From: Acidimicrobiales bacterium
GTDB lineage: Bacteria; Actinomycetota; Acidimicrobiia; Acidimicrobiales; SHLQ01
Reading direction: 5' to 3'
Assembly (NCBI GenBank): GCA_020628865.1
Contig: JAHDEJ010000029.1
Coordinates: forward strand, 1-64,000
Length of the DNA: 64,000 bases
Shown: in pieces, positions 154-6,894 of the stretch
How positions within the stretch are numbered: the stretch's first letter is position 1
Layout of the letters: every line of letters begins with the position of its first letter
Translations under genes and position numbers: made by a program
The notes under the pieces: generated by a model
What the model saw: only the letters and a program-made list of their open reading frames with translations
What the model was told of the DNA's origin: nothing
Databases searched by the model: none

Positions 154-1767
154 GTGAGACCGATCCCTTGGCACCGCCGGCTGGTCACGCAGGCCATGGC
201 CCTGCAGCTGGCAGTCATCGCCGTCGTGCTCCTGATCGTCTCCATTGCGGTTGCCCTCGCCGGACAGAACGCGCTCGAAGAACAGTACGGACTGCGAGCA
301 CAAGCAGTGGCGGAGTCCGTCGCCGAGATCCCCGACGTCCGGGAACTCGTGGCTTCGTCAGTCATCTCGCCCGAGTTGCAGTCAATCGCCGAGGACATTC
401 GCCTTCGGACCGGGGTTTCGTTTGTGGTCATCACCGATGTGGAGGGCATCCGGCACTCCCACCCCAACCCGGATCGCATCGGGAAGCCGGTGTCCACCTC
501 GCCGGCCCTCGCCCTTGCGGGCCTGTCCGACTGGTACGTGGAGACCGGAACGCTGGGCCCATCGGTTCGAGGCAAGGTTCCGATATGGGACGCGACCGGC
601 GAGAACGTGGTTGGGATCGTGTCGGTCGGGGTCCTGACCGGCGAGGTCTCCGAGACGTTACAGGACCGACTTCCCGGCCTGCTTCTTGCCGGTGGTGGCG
701 CCTTTGCTGCCGGATCTGCCGGGGCGTACCTGGGGGCGCGGCGGATCAGGCGACAGACGTTGGGGCACGAGCCGCCGGAGATCGCTGCGTTGTTCGAGCA
801 CCGCGACGGGCTGCTGATGGCCCTTCATGAGGGTGTTTTGGCGCTGGACCGGGACGGCTTCGTGACCTTGGTCAACAGCGAGGCGGAGACACTGCTCGGT
901 CTTCGCTCCGACGGCGTGGGTCAGCGCCTCGACGAACAGGCTGTTCTCCTTCCGCTCGTGGATCTTGCTCAGGCTGGGTCTCCGCAGGTCGATGTGCCCC
1001 TCCAGATCGGAACGCAGACGTTGTTGGTGACGTGTGCGCCGATTGCGATCAGGAACAAGCGTGAGGGCGCCGTCTTCACCTTCAGGGACCGCACGGAACT
1101 TCAGGGACTCGTGAGCGAACTTGAATCGGCTCAGGGATTGATCGACGCGCTGCGGGCCCAGGCCCATGAGCATTCGAACAATCTGCACACCGTGTCAGGG
1201 CTCATCGAGCTCGGCCGACATGACGAGATCCTGTCGCTCGTCAGTGACCACTCCGAGGCGCAGCGTGAACTCGCGGATTTGTACGACCACCGGGGCGGCG
1301 AAGACTCGCTGATGGTCGCCTCGCTGCTTGCGAAGGCCGCAGTTGCCGGCGAACGGGACGTCCGTCTACGAACGCACCTTGGCGAGCTTCCGCAGTTCGA
1401 GGTCAGGTTCTCGCGAGACCTCGTCACCGTCGTTGGCAATCTGGTCGACAACGCCGTGGATCATCTCATCGATGCCCGGGTCGCTGGCGGCGAGGTCGAG
1501 ATCGCGATCTGGCAGGACGAGGGCTCCATCCGTATCGACGTTTCCGACTCTGGCGAAGGCATCTCCGCAGACGTGCTCGATTCGATCTTCGATCCGGGCT
1601 ACACGACGAAGGATCAGCGCAGTCACGATGGCCTCGGCCTGGCGCTGGTCGCCGAGGTCGTCCAGGGATACGGCGGTTCGATCACGGTTGATTCGGAGCT
1701 CGGTTCAGGAACCCTGTTCTCCGTAAGCCTCCCGATACGCACCCACGAGGAGCTCGTACATGCTTGA
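154..1767 (+). CDS. CitA/DcuS-family sensor histidine kinase
   Basis: Membrane sensor kinase, 537 aa, of the family that senses citrate or C4-dicarboxylates and phosphorylates the regulator encoded next. TM helix ~14-36, extracytoplasmic Cache/PAS-like sensor ~40-165, TM2 ~173-196 and cytoplasmic PAS ~215-315 are seen. The H-box around His338 (AHEHSNNLH) has the CitA-type pattern. N-box NLVDNAVDH (~429-437) and G-box DSGEGI (~465-470) show an intact ATPase. The GTG start has a poor Shine-Dalgarno, so a later start is possible. The stop overlaps the regulator start by 8 bp. Convergence with a tricarboxylate transport operon suggests it senses that transporter's substrate; the ligand is not shown. 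Confidence 0.88.
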   Translation: MRPIPWHRRLVTQAMALQLAVIAVVLLIVSIAVALAGQNALEEQYGLRAQAVAESVAEIPDVRELVASSVISPELQSIAEDIRLRTGVSFVVITDVEGIRHSHPNPDRIGKPVSTSPALALAGLSDWYVETGTLGPSVRGKVPIWDATGENVVGIVSVGVLTGEVSETLQDRLPGLLLAGGGAFAAGSAGAYLGARRIRRQTLGHEPPEIAALFEHRDGLLMALHEGVLALDRDGFVTLVNSEAETLLGLRSDGVGQRLDEQAVLLPLVDLAQAGSPQVDVPLQIGTQTLLVTCAPIAIRNKREGAVFTFRDRTELQGLVSELESAQGLIDALRAQAHEHSNNLHTVSGLIELGRHDEILSLVSDHSEAQRELADLYDHRGGEDSLMVASLLAKAAVAGERDVRLRTHLGELPQFEVRFSRDLVTVVGNLVDNAVDHLIDARVAGGEVEIAIWQDEGSIRIDVSDSGEGISADVLDSIFDPGYTTKDQRSHDGLGLALVAEVVQGYGGSITVDSELGSGTLFSVSLPIRTHEELVHA

Positions 1768-2431
1768 TCCGATCACGGTGCTGGTTGTGGAGGACGACTT
1801 TCGGGTCGCTGACATCCACAAGGGCTTCGTCGAAGAAGCAGGTGGGTTCGAGGTCATCGGTACGGCCCAGTCAGGCGCGTCTGCCCTGGAACTGAACGAA
1901 CAGTTGAAGCCGCAACTGGTTCTGCTCGACATCTACCTTCCCGACGGGCTCGGTACCGACGTGTTGAAAGGACTTCGAGCCGGACGGACGGTCGACTGCT
2001 TTGTGCTCACCGCAGCGCGCGACGTCCGAACGGTGAAGCAGTGCCTCGACCTTGGTGCACTTCACTATCTGATCAAGCCGTTCACCCGCGACGAACTGAT
2101 CGAACGGCTTCTCGAATATCGTCGGTGGCGCTTGGCCCTGAACGCCGACGATGAGCTCAGCCAGCCGCAGGTTGACCACATCTTCCATGGCGTTGGTCGG
2201 CCCACCGCCTCGCTGCCGAAGGGGCTCTCCGTGGAAACGATGGAACTCGTGATCGGAGCGCTGATCGACTCGGACGATGCGTTGGCCGCTGAAGATGTGT
2301 CGCAGCTGACTGGCATCAGTCGGGTCAGCGTGCGCCGGTACCTTCGGCATCTGGCCGATACCGGTGATGCGGTGATCCTGCAGGACTACGGAACCCCGGG
2401 CAGACCTCGCCATCGCTTTCGTCTGGTCTGA
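1760..2431 (+). CDS. CitB/DcuR-family response regulator
   Basis: DNA-binding response regulator, 223 aa, partner of the kinase just upstream (8-bp overlap, surely co-transcribed). The receiver domain (~5-120) has the acidic pair EDD near residue 11, phospho-acceptor Asp57 (LLDIYLPDG) and Lys106 (LIKPF). The C-terminal helix-turn-helix (~165-215, GISRVSVRRYLRHL) is the CitB/DcuR type. It likely activates the tctCBA operon, whose last gene ends 3 bp away on the other strand. A direct target site is not proven; the inverted repeat at 6632-6651 is one candidate. Confidence 0.88.
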   Translation: MLDPITVLVVEDDFRVADIHKGFVEEAGGFEVIGTAQSGASALELNEQLKPQLVLLDIYLPDGLGTDVLKGLRAGRTVDCFVLTAARDVRTVKQCLDLGALHYLIKPFTRDELIERLLEYRRWRLALNADDELSQPQVDHIFHGVGRPTASLPKGLSVETMELVIGALIDSDDALAAEDVSQLTGISRVSVRRYLRHLADTGDAVILQDYGTPGRPRHRFRLV

Positions 2432-2434
2432 GGG

Positions 2435-3967
2435 TCAGACTTCGGCGCCGGCGTCGGCGAACTCTTCGTTGATGTTCGTTCCCCGGATCCGGCTGAGAAT
2501 CTGCGGAAGGAACAGCACAGCGACAGCCATCAACAGCAGGAGGATGTTCAACCAGCCGTCCACAAAGGTTGCGTACTCACCACGACTCGCAACGAGGGAT
2601 CGTCGAAAGTTCTGTTCGAGGTCATCGCCGAGAATGAGCCCCATGAGGATGGGTGCGAGTGGCACCTCGAGTTTGCGGAACAGGTAGCCGACGACACCGA
2701 AGATCGTCATGATCGTGATGTCGAGGCCACTGTTGTTGACCGAGTACACCCCGATGTAGGAGATCACAAGGATCATCGGCATCAAGAACCACGGGGGAAT
2801 CTCGAGAATCTTGACGAACAGCTTCACGAGCGGGAAGTTCAGCAGCAGCAGGACGAGGTTGCCGATGTACATCGACGCGATCAGCGTCCAGATCAGCTCG
2901 GGCGTCTCCGCGAAGACGTTGCCGGATCCGGGCCGGATACCCATCGAGATGAGGATGCCCAGCATGACCGCTGTTGTGCCTGAGCCCGGGATGCCGAGGG
3001 TGAGGAGCGGAACGAGTGAGCCGCCGGCCGCAGCATTGTTCGCCGACTCCGGTGCGGCGACGCCACGGATGTCTCCGTCGCCGAAGGTCCCGTCCGTGTC
3101 GGAGATCCGCTTCTCCAGTCCATAGGACATGAAGCCGGCGACGGAGGCTCCTGTTCCTGGAAGCAGTCCCACGAAGAAGCCGATCACGCTGCCCCGGATG
3201 ATTGCGCCGAGCGAAAACGTGAATTCTTTGAACGTCACCCAGATGCGCTCAGCCTTCTGGAAGACGACCGTCTCGCCGTGAACGGTGTCTTCCAGCAGCG
3301 TGAGCACCTCGCTCACGGCGAAGAGGCCGATCGCGATGATGACGAAGTCCATGCCTTCTTGGAGTTTCAATTCTCCGAAGGTGTACCGGACGACGCCCGT
3401 CTGCAGGTCGGTGCCGACGGTGGAGAGGATCACTCCGAAGGTGACGGCGAGCAGGCCCTTGAAGATGTTCTTTCCAGCCAGGCTCGAGACGGTGGCGAAG
3501 GCGAGGATCACCACCATGAACTTCTCGGGGGATTGGAATTTGGTGGTGACCTCGGAGAGCGGCGGTCCGAAGAGCATCAGCCCGAGTACCGACGCCGTGC
3601 CGGCGATGAACGATCCGATCGCGGAAATGGCGAGCGCTTGTCCGGCCCGCCCCTGTCTGGCCATCTGATAGCCGTCGAGGGTGGTCACGACCGACGACGC
3701 TTCACCGGGCACATTGAGCAGAATGCTCGTGGTGGATCCACCGTATTGGCTGCCGTAGTAGACGCTCGCCAGAAGGATGAGCGTTGCGGCGTCGTCGAGG
3801 CCGAGCGTGAGGGTGATTGGGAAGAGAATGGCGACGCCCGTGATTGGGCCGATGCCCGGCAGCACGCCGATCAGCGTCCCGAGCAGGCAGCCGGCGAGCG
3901 CCAGTGCCAGGTTCTCTGGCGTGAGCGCCGCCTGGAATCCGTCGAGAATGTTGAATGCGAGGAGCAA
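2435..3967 (-). CDS. tctA: Tripartite tricarboxylate transporter, large membrane subunit TctA
   Basis: Large permease of a TTT-family secondary transporter for di- or tricarboxylates driven by an ion gradient, working with TctB and the TctC receptor. The 510-aa protein is about the family length, with ~11-12 hydrophobic segments. Family hallmarks are the N-terminal GIGPITG and YGSQYGGSTTSILLNVPGE motifs (~40-90) and the internally repeated GIPGSGTTA near residue 325. It starts with TTG only 1 nt after the tctB stop, so translation is probably coupled. Third and last gene of the tctC-tctB-tctA operon. No terminator is evident between its stop and the convergent regulator stop (3-bp gap). Confidence 0.93.
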   Translation of the reverse strand: MLLAFNILDGFQAALTPENLALALAGCLLGTLIGVLPGIGPITGVAILFPITLTLGLDDAATLILLASVYYGSQYGGSTTSILLNVPGEASSVVTTLDGYQMARQGRAGQALAISAIGSFIAGTASVLGLMLFGPPLSEVTTKFQSPEKFMVVILAFATVSSLAGKNIFKGLLAVTFGVILSTVGTDLQTGVVRYTFGELKLQEGMDFVIIAIGLFAVSEVLTLLEDTVHGETVVFQKAERIWVTFKEFTFSLGAIIRGSVIGFFVGLLPGTGASVAGFMSYGLEKRISDTDGTFGDGDIRGVAAPESANNAAAGGSLVPLLTLGIPGSGTTAVMLGILISMGIRPGSGNVFAETPELIWTLIASMYIGNLVLLLLNFPLVKLFVKILEIPPWFLMPMILVISYIGVYSVNNSGLDITIMTIFGVVGYLFRKLEVPLAPILMGLILGDDLEQNFRRSLVASRGEYATFVDGWLNILLLLMAVAVLFLPQILSRIRGTNINEEFADAGAEV

Positions 3968-3968
3968 C

Positions 3969-4490
3969 TCAGAAACCTCCCCACCAGCCGGCGGGAAGCC
4001 GGAGTTCGAGCCAGTTGTTGAAGACGAACGCGAGCAACGTCGGGAACAGGACGCTCAGCGGCACGAGCTTCTTCGGCGGTGCTCGAAAGAGCAGGCCGAT
4101 CACCGCCATCATCACTGCGCTGGCAGCGATGAATCCGATTGGTTCCATCACCCGTCCGTAGATGTACGAGCTGATGACGACCAAACCGATCTGCCACGAC
4201 GCCTGTCTGGTCGGCCATCGTGGTGGCCCGTCTGGTTTGAGAATCAGGTAGAGGGCGAGGAGTCCGAAGAGCACGCCCACGCCGGTCGGCATGGTCTTCG
4301 GGCCCACCGGGCCGGTTGCGAAGGCTGTGCCGTCGAACGTGCGGGCCTCGGCCGTGTACCAGGCTGCGATTGCGAGACAAACGAGCCCGAGCACCCGGTC
4401 ACTCCATCCGGCGGCACCGGAGGGGGTGCCGTCGGAGGAGTGACCGTTGTCAGGAGTTGTCGATGGGGTTGTCGACGTTTCGTCAGACAT
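3969..4490 (-). CDS. tctB: Tripartite tricarboxylate transporter, small membrane subunit TctB
   Basis: Small permease subunit of the TTT transporter, 173 aa, with four predicted membrane helices (~32-50, 68-85, 102-135, 142-160) after a hydrophilic Thr/Pro-rich N-terminus. Sequence conservation in this family is low, so the call rests on size, helix pattern and its place between tctC and tctA. ATG at 4490 is preferred: the longer reading frame upstream is Arg/Pro-rich and overlaps the tctC coding end. The gap to tctC is 23 bp. Confidence 0.85.
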   Translation of the reverse strand: MSDETSTTPSTTPDNGHSSDGTPSGAAGWSDRVLGLVCLAIAAWYTAEARTFDGTAFATGPVGPKTMPTGVGVLFGLLALYLILKPDGPPRWPTRQASWQIGLVVISSYIYGRVMEPIGFIAASAVMMAVIGLLFRAPPKKLVPLSVLFPTLLAFVFNNWLELRLPAGWWGGF

Positions 4491-4513: not shown

Positions 4514-6499
4514 TTACTCGGCGACGAGGCCGAATGGTTCGGAGAGGTTGCGGAAGTCGGTGACGGCTTGGAGTGCGAAGGCTTGGAAGTCGTCTCCGAG
4601 GAGGCGGAGTGGGCTGAGTCCGTTTTCTTCGCGGGCTGCGGCCCACTCGTCGGAGGCTTCGACTTGGCCGAGTGCGTCGACCCAGTAGTCGTAGGCTTCG
4701 TCGGACATTCCGCCGGGGGCGAGCAGGCCGCGCCAGATCGGGAAGATCGTTTCGTAGCCGAGTTCGACGGTGGTTGGGATGTCGTCCATTCCGGGGACTC
4801 GGTCGTCTGCCATGACGGTGAGGATTCGGAGGTTGTCGTTGCCGATGGTTTCGGAGACGTCGAGGGTTGCGACCTGGATCTCTCCGCCGAGGAGCGCGTT
4901 TTGGGCTTCTCCGCCGCCGTCGTAGGCGACCCAGGGGATTGATGATGGGTCGATGCCGAGTTCTTGGCTGAGGAGCAGGACTTTGAAGTGGTCTTGGCCG
5001 CCGACGGGGGAGCCTCCGCCGAACACGACGGAGGTCGGGTCGGCTTGGACGGCTGCGATGAGGTCGTCGAAGGTTTCGTATTCGCTGTCGTTGGTGACGG
5101 CGACGACTCCGAAGTCGGCGCCGATTGCTCCGATCCAGCGGAATTGGTCGGCTTCGAGACCGGTGTATTGGTTTTGTCCGAATCGGATTGCGGTTGCCGG
5201 CGATGCTGCGATGAGGAGGTCGCTGTTGTCGCTTCGGTTGGCGGCGATGTCGGAGAATGCGACGCCGCCGCCGCCTCCGGGTTGGTTGGTGATGACGATG
5301 TTCGAGGAGAGGCCGAGGTCTTCGATGAGTTGGCCGATCGAGCGGCAGGTGAAGTCCCAGCCGCCGCCGGCATCAGCTGGCGCCACACACTCGGGCGAAC
5401 CAGGCACGTACGCCGACGCAGTATCGGCTTCAGCGCCGTCCGATCCGGCGACGAGGCCGAATGGTTCGGAGAGGTTGCGGAAGTCGGTGACGGCTTGGAG
5501 TGCGAAGGCTTGGAAGTCGTCTCCGAGGAGGCGGAGTGGGCTGAGTCCGTTTTCTTCGCGGGCTGCGGCCCACTCGTCGGAGGCTTCGACTTGGCCGAGT
5601 GCGTCGACCCAGTAGTCGTAGGCTTCGTCGGACATTCCGCCGGGGGCGAGCAGGCCGCGCCAGATCGGGAAGATCGTTTCGTAGCCGAGTTCGACGGTGG
5701 TTGGGATGTCGTCCATTCCGGGGACTCGGTCGTCTGCCATGACGGTGAGGATTCGGAGGTTGTCGTTGCCGATGGTTTCGGAGACGTCGAGGGTTGCGAC
5801 CTGGATCTCTCCGCCGAGGAGCGCGTTTTGGGCTTCTCCGCCGCCGTCGTAGGCGACCCAGGGGATTGATGATGGGTCGATGCCGAGTTCTTGGCTGAGG
5901 AGCAGGACTTTGAAGTGGTCTTGGCCGCCGACGGGGGAGCCTCCGCCGAACACGACGGAGGTCGGGTCGGCTTGGACGGCTGCGATGAGGTCGTCGAAGG
6001 TTTCGTATTCGCTGTCGTTGGTGACGGCGACGACTCCGAAGTCGGCGCCGATTGCTCCGATCCAGCGGAATTGGTCGGCTTCGAGACCGGTGTATTGGTT
6101 TTGTCCGAATCGGATTGCGGTTGCCGGCGATGCTGCGATGAGGAGGTCGCTGTTGTCGCTTCGGTTGGCGGCGATGTCGGAGAATGCGACGCCGCCGCCG
6201 CCTCCGGGTTGGTTGGTGATGACGATGTTCGAGGAGAGGCCGAGGTCTTCGATGAGTTGGCCGATCGAGCGGCAGGTGAAGTCCCAACCGCCGCCGGCAT
6301 CAGCTGGCGCCACACACTCGGGCGAACCAGGCACGTACGGTCCCTCGACGTCGGCCGCATCGTTGTCATCTGCGGAGTCATCGGACGCTGCAACGTCGCC
6401 GCCATCGGCGACAGCGCTCTCGTCGTCGCTTCCGCACGCAGTGGCGACAAGGCCGAAGGCCAACAACACGGCGAGCAGTCGGAGCCAGATTCGTTTCAT
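4514..6499 (-). CDS. tctC: Tandem-duplicated TctC-type substrate-binding lipoprotein
   Basis: Secreted receptor of the TTT transporter (Bug/TctC family), which captures a carboxylate for TctAB. Residues 1-21 are a lipoprotein signal ending at the Cys of VATAC, followed by an acidic linker to ~54. Then come two copies of a ~298-residue receptor domain, each beginning YVPGSPECVAP and ending SEPFGLVA, joined by a 12-residue acidic linker (GSDGAEADTASA). A normal family member has one domain (~320 aa); this one has 661 aa. The two copies are identical in protein and differ at one synonymous base in 894 bp. First gene of tctCBA. Either the protein is a genuine two-headed receptor or the repeat is an assembly error. 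Confidence 0.9.
   Translation of the reverse strand: MKRIWLRLLAVLLAFGLVATACGSDDESAVADGGDVAASDDSADDNDAADVEGPYVPGSPECVAPADAGGGWDFTCRSIGQLIEDLGLSSNIVITNQPGGGGGVAFSDIAANRSDNSDLLIAASPATAIRFGQNQYTGLEADQFRWIGAIGADFGVVAVTNDSEYETFDDLIAAVQADPTSVVFGGGSPVGGQDHFKVLLLSQELGIDPSSIPWVAYDGGGEAQNALLGGEIQVATLDVSETIGNDNLRILTVMADDRVPGMDDIPTTVELGYETIFPIWRGLLAPGGMSDEAYDYWVDALGQVEASDEWAAAREENGLSPLRLLGDDFQAFALQAVTDFRNLSEPFGLVAGSDGAEADTASAYVPGSPECVAPADAGGGWDFTCRSIGQLIEDLGLSSNIVITNQPGGGGGVAFSDIAANRSDNSDLLIAASPATAIRFGQNQYTGLEADQFRWIGAIGADFGVVAVTNDSEYETFDDLIAAVQADPTSVVFGGGSPVGGQDHFKVLLLSQELGIDPSSIPWVAYDGGGEAQNALLGGEIQVATLDVSETIGNDNLRILTVMADDRVPGMDDIPTTVELGYETIFPIWRGLLAPGGMSDEAYDYWVDALGQVEASDEWAAAREENGLSPLRLLGDDFQAFALQAVTDFRNLSEPFGLVAE
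4519..5412 (-). repeat. Direct repeat copy encoding the second TctC domain
   Basis: An 894-bp stretch repeated at 5446-6339 with a period of 927 bp (309 codons, in frame). By eye the only difference is 5360 g versus 6287 a, which changes a Gly codon synonymously. This copy encodes the C-terminal receptor domain. Confidence 0.95.
5446..6339 (-). repeat. Direct repeat copy encoding the first TctC domain
   Basis: Partner of the repeat at 4519-5412. The 33-bp spacer between copies (5413-5445) encodes an acidic linker and has no evident counterpart upstream of this copy, so simple slippage of one unit does not fully explain the structure. Confidence 0.95.
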
Positions 6500-6820
6500 T
6501 TCCCCTCCCAGGGTTCACGGGAGCGGACAAGCTCCACGTGACCATGGACACAACCAAGAGACGGGGAAAGGCTCAACGATGCGGAACTAAGCCGCGAAAG
6601 AACCGTAAGGCGGAGTATTGGTCGTATTGCTCCATTGGCTTGGCCAAATGGAATGATCGTCGCCGTCGCGGGCCTCATCGGCCAACACTCGGAGTCATAC
6701 TCGACGGAAACTCGAAGAGTTCGCGTGGGCTTGGTGGAACAGCTTTCGAAATCGCAGAACGCTCCGCCCTACGATGTTTCGGCGCAGCCGAAACTCGGTG
6801 AGCGAGCGGAGCGAACGACG
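6500..6820. other. Intergenic region upstream of the tctCBA operon
   Basis: 320 bp with no convincing gene. It lies between the tctC start and the 3' end of tRNA-Val and should hold the tct promoter. It is less GC-rich than its surroundings. The one clear structure is the inverted repeat at 6632-6651. Confidence 0.6.
6632..6651. promoter_or_regulatory. Inverted repeat, possible operator of tctCBA
   Basis: CCATTGGC-ttg-GCCAAATGG is an imperfect 8/9-bp inverted repeat about 135 bp upstream of the tctC start. It is a plausible binding site for the CitB-like regulator, but nothing in the sequence links the two beyond position. Confidence 0.3.
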
Positions 6821-6894
6821 TGGGCGTTGAGGGACTCGAACCCCCGACCCTCTCGGTGTAAACGAGATGCTCTAGCCAACTGAGCTAAACGCCC
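6821..6894 (-). tRNA. tRNA-Val (anticodon UAC)
   Basis: A full cloverleaf is visible on the minus strand: acceptor GGGCGTT pairs with AACGCCC plus discriminator A; the D arm has GCTCAGTTGGCTAGAGC; the anticodon stem TCTCG/CGAGA encloses the loop TTTACAC with anticodon TAC; the T arm has GGTTCGAGTCC. It is 74 nt, without an encoded CCA directly after the discriminator. It reads GUA and probably other Val codons. Confidence 0.96.

Follow-up and report, generated by a model that had tools for sequence, protein, structure and literature searches.

Two Acidimicrobiales genomes encode a predicted tripartite tricarboxylate transporter receptor with two identical TctC domains in one chain

The TctC receptors of described TctCBA systems, such as Salmonella TctC, Bordetella Bug27, BugD, and BugE, TphC, MatC, and AdpC, have a single binding domain. 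The accessible part of a 2018 review of TRAP and tripartite tricarboxylate transporter (TTT) systems reports the TctC receptor beside TctA and TctB, rare fused TctAB proteins, and dimers of some TRAP receptors (PMC5812351); a double TctC is not described in that part. A literature search for tandem or double TctC, with most subscription papers outside its scope, found none, which is weak evidence. Massive expansion of TTT receptors has been reported in Rhodoplanes, where they form tandem arrays of separate genes (PMC5994714). Tandem binding domains are already known for ABC importers; GlnPQ has tandem substrate-binding domains that are joined by a 14-residue linker and bind independently (PMC8025302). 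Long-lasting concerted evolution, in which the copies of one genome resemble each other more than their orthologues in other genomes, is known for tuf-type bacterial paralogues (PMC6053082).

The locus considered here lies in an Acidimicrobiales draft genome, on a stretch of 64,000 nucleotides (JAHDEJ010000029.1, positions 1 to 64,000) that was analysed whole and is called the window below. It shares the Pfam domain, the fold, the TctB/TctA operon, and a neighbouring two-component system with the single-domain TctCBA systems, but has two identical TctC domains in one chain, and it is the presence of tandem domains in a TTT receptor that appears to be new. As in GlnPQ, two extracellular binding domains stand in tandem, here with a linker of about 11-12 residues; however, GlnPQ is an ABC transporter with domains of different specificities fused to the permease, whereas the heads here are identical and sit on a separate lipoprotein that serves a secondary transporter. 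The Rhodoplanes arrays are likewise tandem receptor duplications, but of separate, diverged genes rather than one fused ORF with identical domains. The within-genome likeness of the copies is of the tuf type, although the homogenised units here would be two domains of one protein.

Anatomy of the receptor gene and its operon

The features of the locus, in window coordinates, are as follows.

154 to 1767, plus strand: sensor histidine kinase of the CitA/DcuS kind (Pfam sCache_3_2, PAS, SPOB_a, HATPase)
1760 to 2431, plus strand: response regulator of the CitB/DcuR/DpiA kind (PF00072; nearest NCBIfam models DcuR and DpiA, both below cut-off)
2435 to 3967, minus strand: TctA, large membrane subunit (PF01970, E 2.1e-154)
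3969 to 4490, minus strand: TctB, small membrane subunit (PF07331, E 3.6e-19)
4514 to 6499, minus strand: two-domain TctC receptor gene, 661-aa lipoprotein (open ORF; two PF03401 matches)
4519 to 5412, minus strand: copy 2 of the 894-bp repeat, C-terminal TctC domain (self-comparison; PF03401; AlphaFold2 model)
5413 to 5445, minus strand: 33-nt linker, GSDGAEADTAS, between the domains (self-comparison; resembles the linker of the second double gene, L023)
5446 to 6339, minus strand: copy 1 of the 894-bp repeat, N-terminal TctC domain (self-comparison; PF03401)
6340 to 6499, minus strand: lipoprotein signal peptide (lipobox Cys22) and acidic stalk (translation; stalk comparison with relatives)
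6580 to 6604, minus strand: conserved stretch upstream of tctC, GGTTCTTTCGCGGCTTAGTTCCGCA (upstream comparison with L023)

The receptor ORF begins with ATG and encodes, in order, a lipoprotein signal, an acidic stalk (35 residues up to the domain, net charge -12), a TctC domain, the acidic linker, and a second TctC domain, and so departs from the usual form with one binding domain, a form that the family does not strictly require. PF03401 (TctC) is found twice in the ORF (151.1 bits against a cut-off of 27). Self-comparison of the gene, offset by 927, defines the repeat: gene nucleotides 161-1054 (copy 1) and 1088-1981 (copy 2) differ only at gene nucleotide 213, where copy 1 has GGT and copy 2 has GGC, both glycine (window 6287 and 5360). 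Chance was ruled out as the source of this repeat, and the window has no other direct repeat that reaches 60 bp. The sequence-only reading, in which two 894-bp copies spaced by 927 bp and separated by one synonymous difference form a single lipoprotein, is thus borne out by the self-comparison and Pfam. Besides the double gene, the window genome has no further TctC match. A TAXI assignment was rejected, the NCBIfam match being sub-threshold (22.2 bits against a cut-off of 84.35).

The tctB and tctA genes are adjacent to tctC on its downstream side, so that all three components of a tripartite tricarboxylate transporter are encoded together, and the kinase and regulator genes face them. For the kinase the nearest NCBIfam models are DcuS/MalK and DpiB, with scores below their cut-offs; this CitA/DcuS-type two-component system probably controls the tctCBA operon. 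The stretch GGTTCTTTCGCGGCTTAGTTCCGCA, of about 25 nt, is common to both double-domain operons (L023 about 1421-1445), and a part of it, CTTAGTTCC, also occurs upstream of some single-domain tctC operons. The stretch is a candidate promoter or regulator site, possibly bound by the response regulator. A tRNA-Val gene (window 6820-6894) lies beside the transporter operon, the window begins at a contig end, and the operon is present in one of the 19 genomes of the family; it may be an acquired island. Leucine codon use differs between receptor and membrane subunit, with 25 CTC against two CTG in tctC and 42 against 27 in tctA, and this much narrower codon set in tctC suggests high expression of the receptor.

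A second double gene and the rarity of the form

The search of related genomes for two-domain TctC proteins of about 660 residues, as proposed from the sequence alone, yielded one. It is encoded on JAHDCV010000100.1 (L023), from Acidimicrobiales MAG-142, of another family of the same order and evidently the same genome as the one labelled G116; its ORF has two TctC domains and its operon the same gene order as that in the window. The L023 copies are 100% identical over 927 nt at a spacing of 924, with about 3 bp of microhomology at the junction. The linker had earlier been described as having no counterpart upstream of copy 1; this holds in the window, where self-comparison gave no match there for 5413-5445, but not in L023, whose linker exactly repeats the sequence that precedes copy 1. 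The two genes share the codon at which the junction lies (FGLVA, then G or D, then SDG). Over the approximately 12 low-complexity residues that the comparison covers, the two linkers align with a score of 25, a score matched by 3 of 1128 stalk windows (shuffle P 0.0016). The stalks of the doubles have 35 and 37 residues, compared with 53-64 in near single-domain receptors. Among the latter, L024, L025, L028, L029, and L030 have long acidic stalks from lipobox to receptor, of 53-64 residues and with net charges of -22 to -30; in the doubles the stalk is about two thirds as long and half as charged.

Scanning 84,980 species genomes gave 55 related loci, on which the rarity of the form outside Actinomycetota is judged; only L023 has two TctC domains in one ORF and the other 54 are single-domain. 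Among 396 sampled Actinomycetota genomes, 79 TctC ORFs occur in 49 genomes and the window's is the only double. These two surveys agree with the expectation that single-domain receptors are the rule. The double form is present in 1 of 19 genomes of the window's family and 1 of 39 of the family of L023. No other genome of the former 19 has a close relative, nor does the only genus-mate of L023 in the collection, and a scan of viral contigs gave no relatives.

Several single-domain relatives have features of their own. L024 and L030, on different contigs of one genome (L1_Bin_MAXBIN__023), are two separate single-domain TctC operons of this clade. L032 and L031, titled Granulosicoccus sp. and Acidobacteria, are close relatives of the operon with 73-81% domain identity, which either transfer or misbinning might explain. 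The receptor-gene relative at 4001-4817 of L077 is split into frames, with a fragment of a related histidine kinase directly adjoining; this is either a degraded copy of the system or the result of sequence errors.

Origin of the two heads

In a tree built from a codon alignment of the TctC domain, the four copies from the two double genes form one clade (support 99/98) and pair by genome rather than by position. The dS between copies is 0.005 in the window and 0 in L023, compared with 0.47 between the two genomes, and dS from either double to the nearest single-domain genes is at least 0.93. The two copies in each genome therefore resemble each other more closely than they resemble their orthologues in the other genome. 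For a duplication that predates the split, the probability of at most one difference having arisen since then without homogenisation is about 1e-33, so that recombination would have kept the copies alike. For the accompanying tctA, a tree of TctA does not support the two genomes as sisters, and dS between them is 0.84, higher than in tctC (P 0.0006 at four-fold sites). Separate transfer of tctC was considered as a reason for its lower dS, but the stronger codon bias of tctC explains the difference at least equally well and no such claim is made.

The reading preferred here, with somewhat better than even confidence, is a single old in-frame duplication of tctC with heads homogenised by recombination, giving a tethered two-headed receptor for TctAB. 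An internal duplication in the TTT solute receptor gene would have occurred once, before the gene lineages of the window and L023 separated, and the heads would since have been kept identical in each lineage by homologous recombination of the direct repeats, whether as gene conversion or as unequal crossing-over. In the window, the linker and stalk would have drifted apart while the heads stayed alike: identity ends at the domain edge, beyond which linker and stalk differ, as expected if conversion acts only on homologous sequence. With a fresh tandem copy the linker would instead contain upstream sequence, and the different sequence of the window linker points to an old duplication. The shared clade, the common junction codon, the likeness of the linkers, and the short stalks also favour an old event.

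That only two double-domain genes are known is a counterweight, as are the low complexity of the few linker residues compared and the lack of supported sister placement of the two genomes in TctA, and with two cases parsimony is weak in choosing between one gain with conversion and two gains. Two separate, recent in-frame tandem duplications, one in each lineage and without long-term gene conversion, would suit L023 well, which appears fresh in its 924-bp unit without differences, its linker taken from upstream of copy 1, and its short microhomology. The tctC gene may even be prone to such events, a short match between stalk and C-terminus being sufficient, and independent tandem duplication is the named alternative for tandem pairs in a study of prokaryotic concerted evolution (PMC6053082). 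Such a history is nevertheless rather unlikely, given that the doubles are sisters, share their junction codon, and have linkers alike beyond chance, and that the window linker differs from the sequence preceding its copy 1, with which it should be identical after a fresh duplication; when the two histories are weighed directly, single origin with homogenisation is given about twice the weight.

A misjoined second domain or a wrong copy number in the assemblies is very improbable. Both genomes are fragmented drafts, of 113 contigs for the window and about 120 for L023, the latter titled a MAG, and short reads do not span a repeat of about 900 bp, so an assembler may walk the repeat loop the wrong number of times. 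However, a unique in-frame linker joins the copies, one base separates those in the window, and an artefact would need to have struck the same gene twice, L023 having the same form in diverged sequence. The exact copy number is a separate matter, since near-perfect repeats of 0.9 kb can collapse or be miscounted, and three or more heads may be present in the cell. The sequence-only reading had offered a very recent event, active gene conversion, or an assembly artefact; of these, the single clade of homogenised copies favours conversion, an artefact is unlikely, and a very recent event, taken by itself, is not the reading that fits best.

Compatible with either origin is the view that the duplication is neutral or transient and the second head useless and due to be lost. 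The rare distribution, in one genome of each family, agrees with this. On the other hand, without selection bacteria would be expected to lose near-perfect direct repeats of such length quickly by recombination, and if the origin was single, both heads have remained intact in two lineages over a dS of about 0.47, which makes a useless second head doubtful.

Fold, ligand, and meaning of two identical heads

An AlphaFold2 model of the single domain (copy 2) has a pLDDT of 93.1; a full-length model of the 661 residues, made with 11 relatives, reached only 41.9, which is too low, and the single-domain model was used. The domain model matches Bug27 (Z 35.6, rmsd 2.1 over 291 residues), TphC (Z 32.9), and MatC with malate (Z 29.3), and thus has the Venus-flytrap fold of solved TctC receptors along its full length. 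The nearest solved chains by sequence are also TTT receptors. The ligand is probably a di- or tricarboxylate, on the basis of the family and of the adjacent CitA/DcuS-type sensor. The amino acids are identical over the domain, so both heads have the same specificity and different specificities were rejected. Binding of two ligands at once, as had been suggested, can accordingly mean two molecules of the same ligand at most and not two different ligands.

The product of the preferred history, a single duplication followed by homogenisation, would be a lipoprotein anchored in the membrane, with a short acidic stalk that bears two identical Venus-flytrap domains connected by the short linker; each head would capture one molecule of the same ligand and pass it to the TctA-TctB pair. 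By analogy with GlnPQ, each anchor would carry twice as many binding sites with two heads as with one. Selection may favour a larger number of binding sites per transporter, which fits the strong codon bias and presumed high expression of tctC. With identical heads, the usual explanation of tandem domains by two specificities falls away, and capacity, local concentration, or reach are what is left.

Should the homogenisation be real, it would be a compact natural example of concerted evolution within a single bacterial gene, and it would warn that such genes may be reduced to a single head in short-read assemblies. It is a tentative possibility, somewhat short of an even chance, that the receptor has been two-headed since before the gene lineages of the two families separated, with recombination continuing within one gene, paired equal sites favoured, and the number of heads free to vary.
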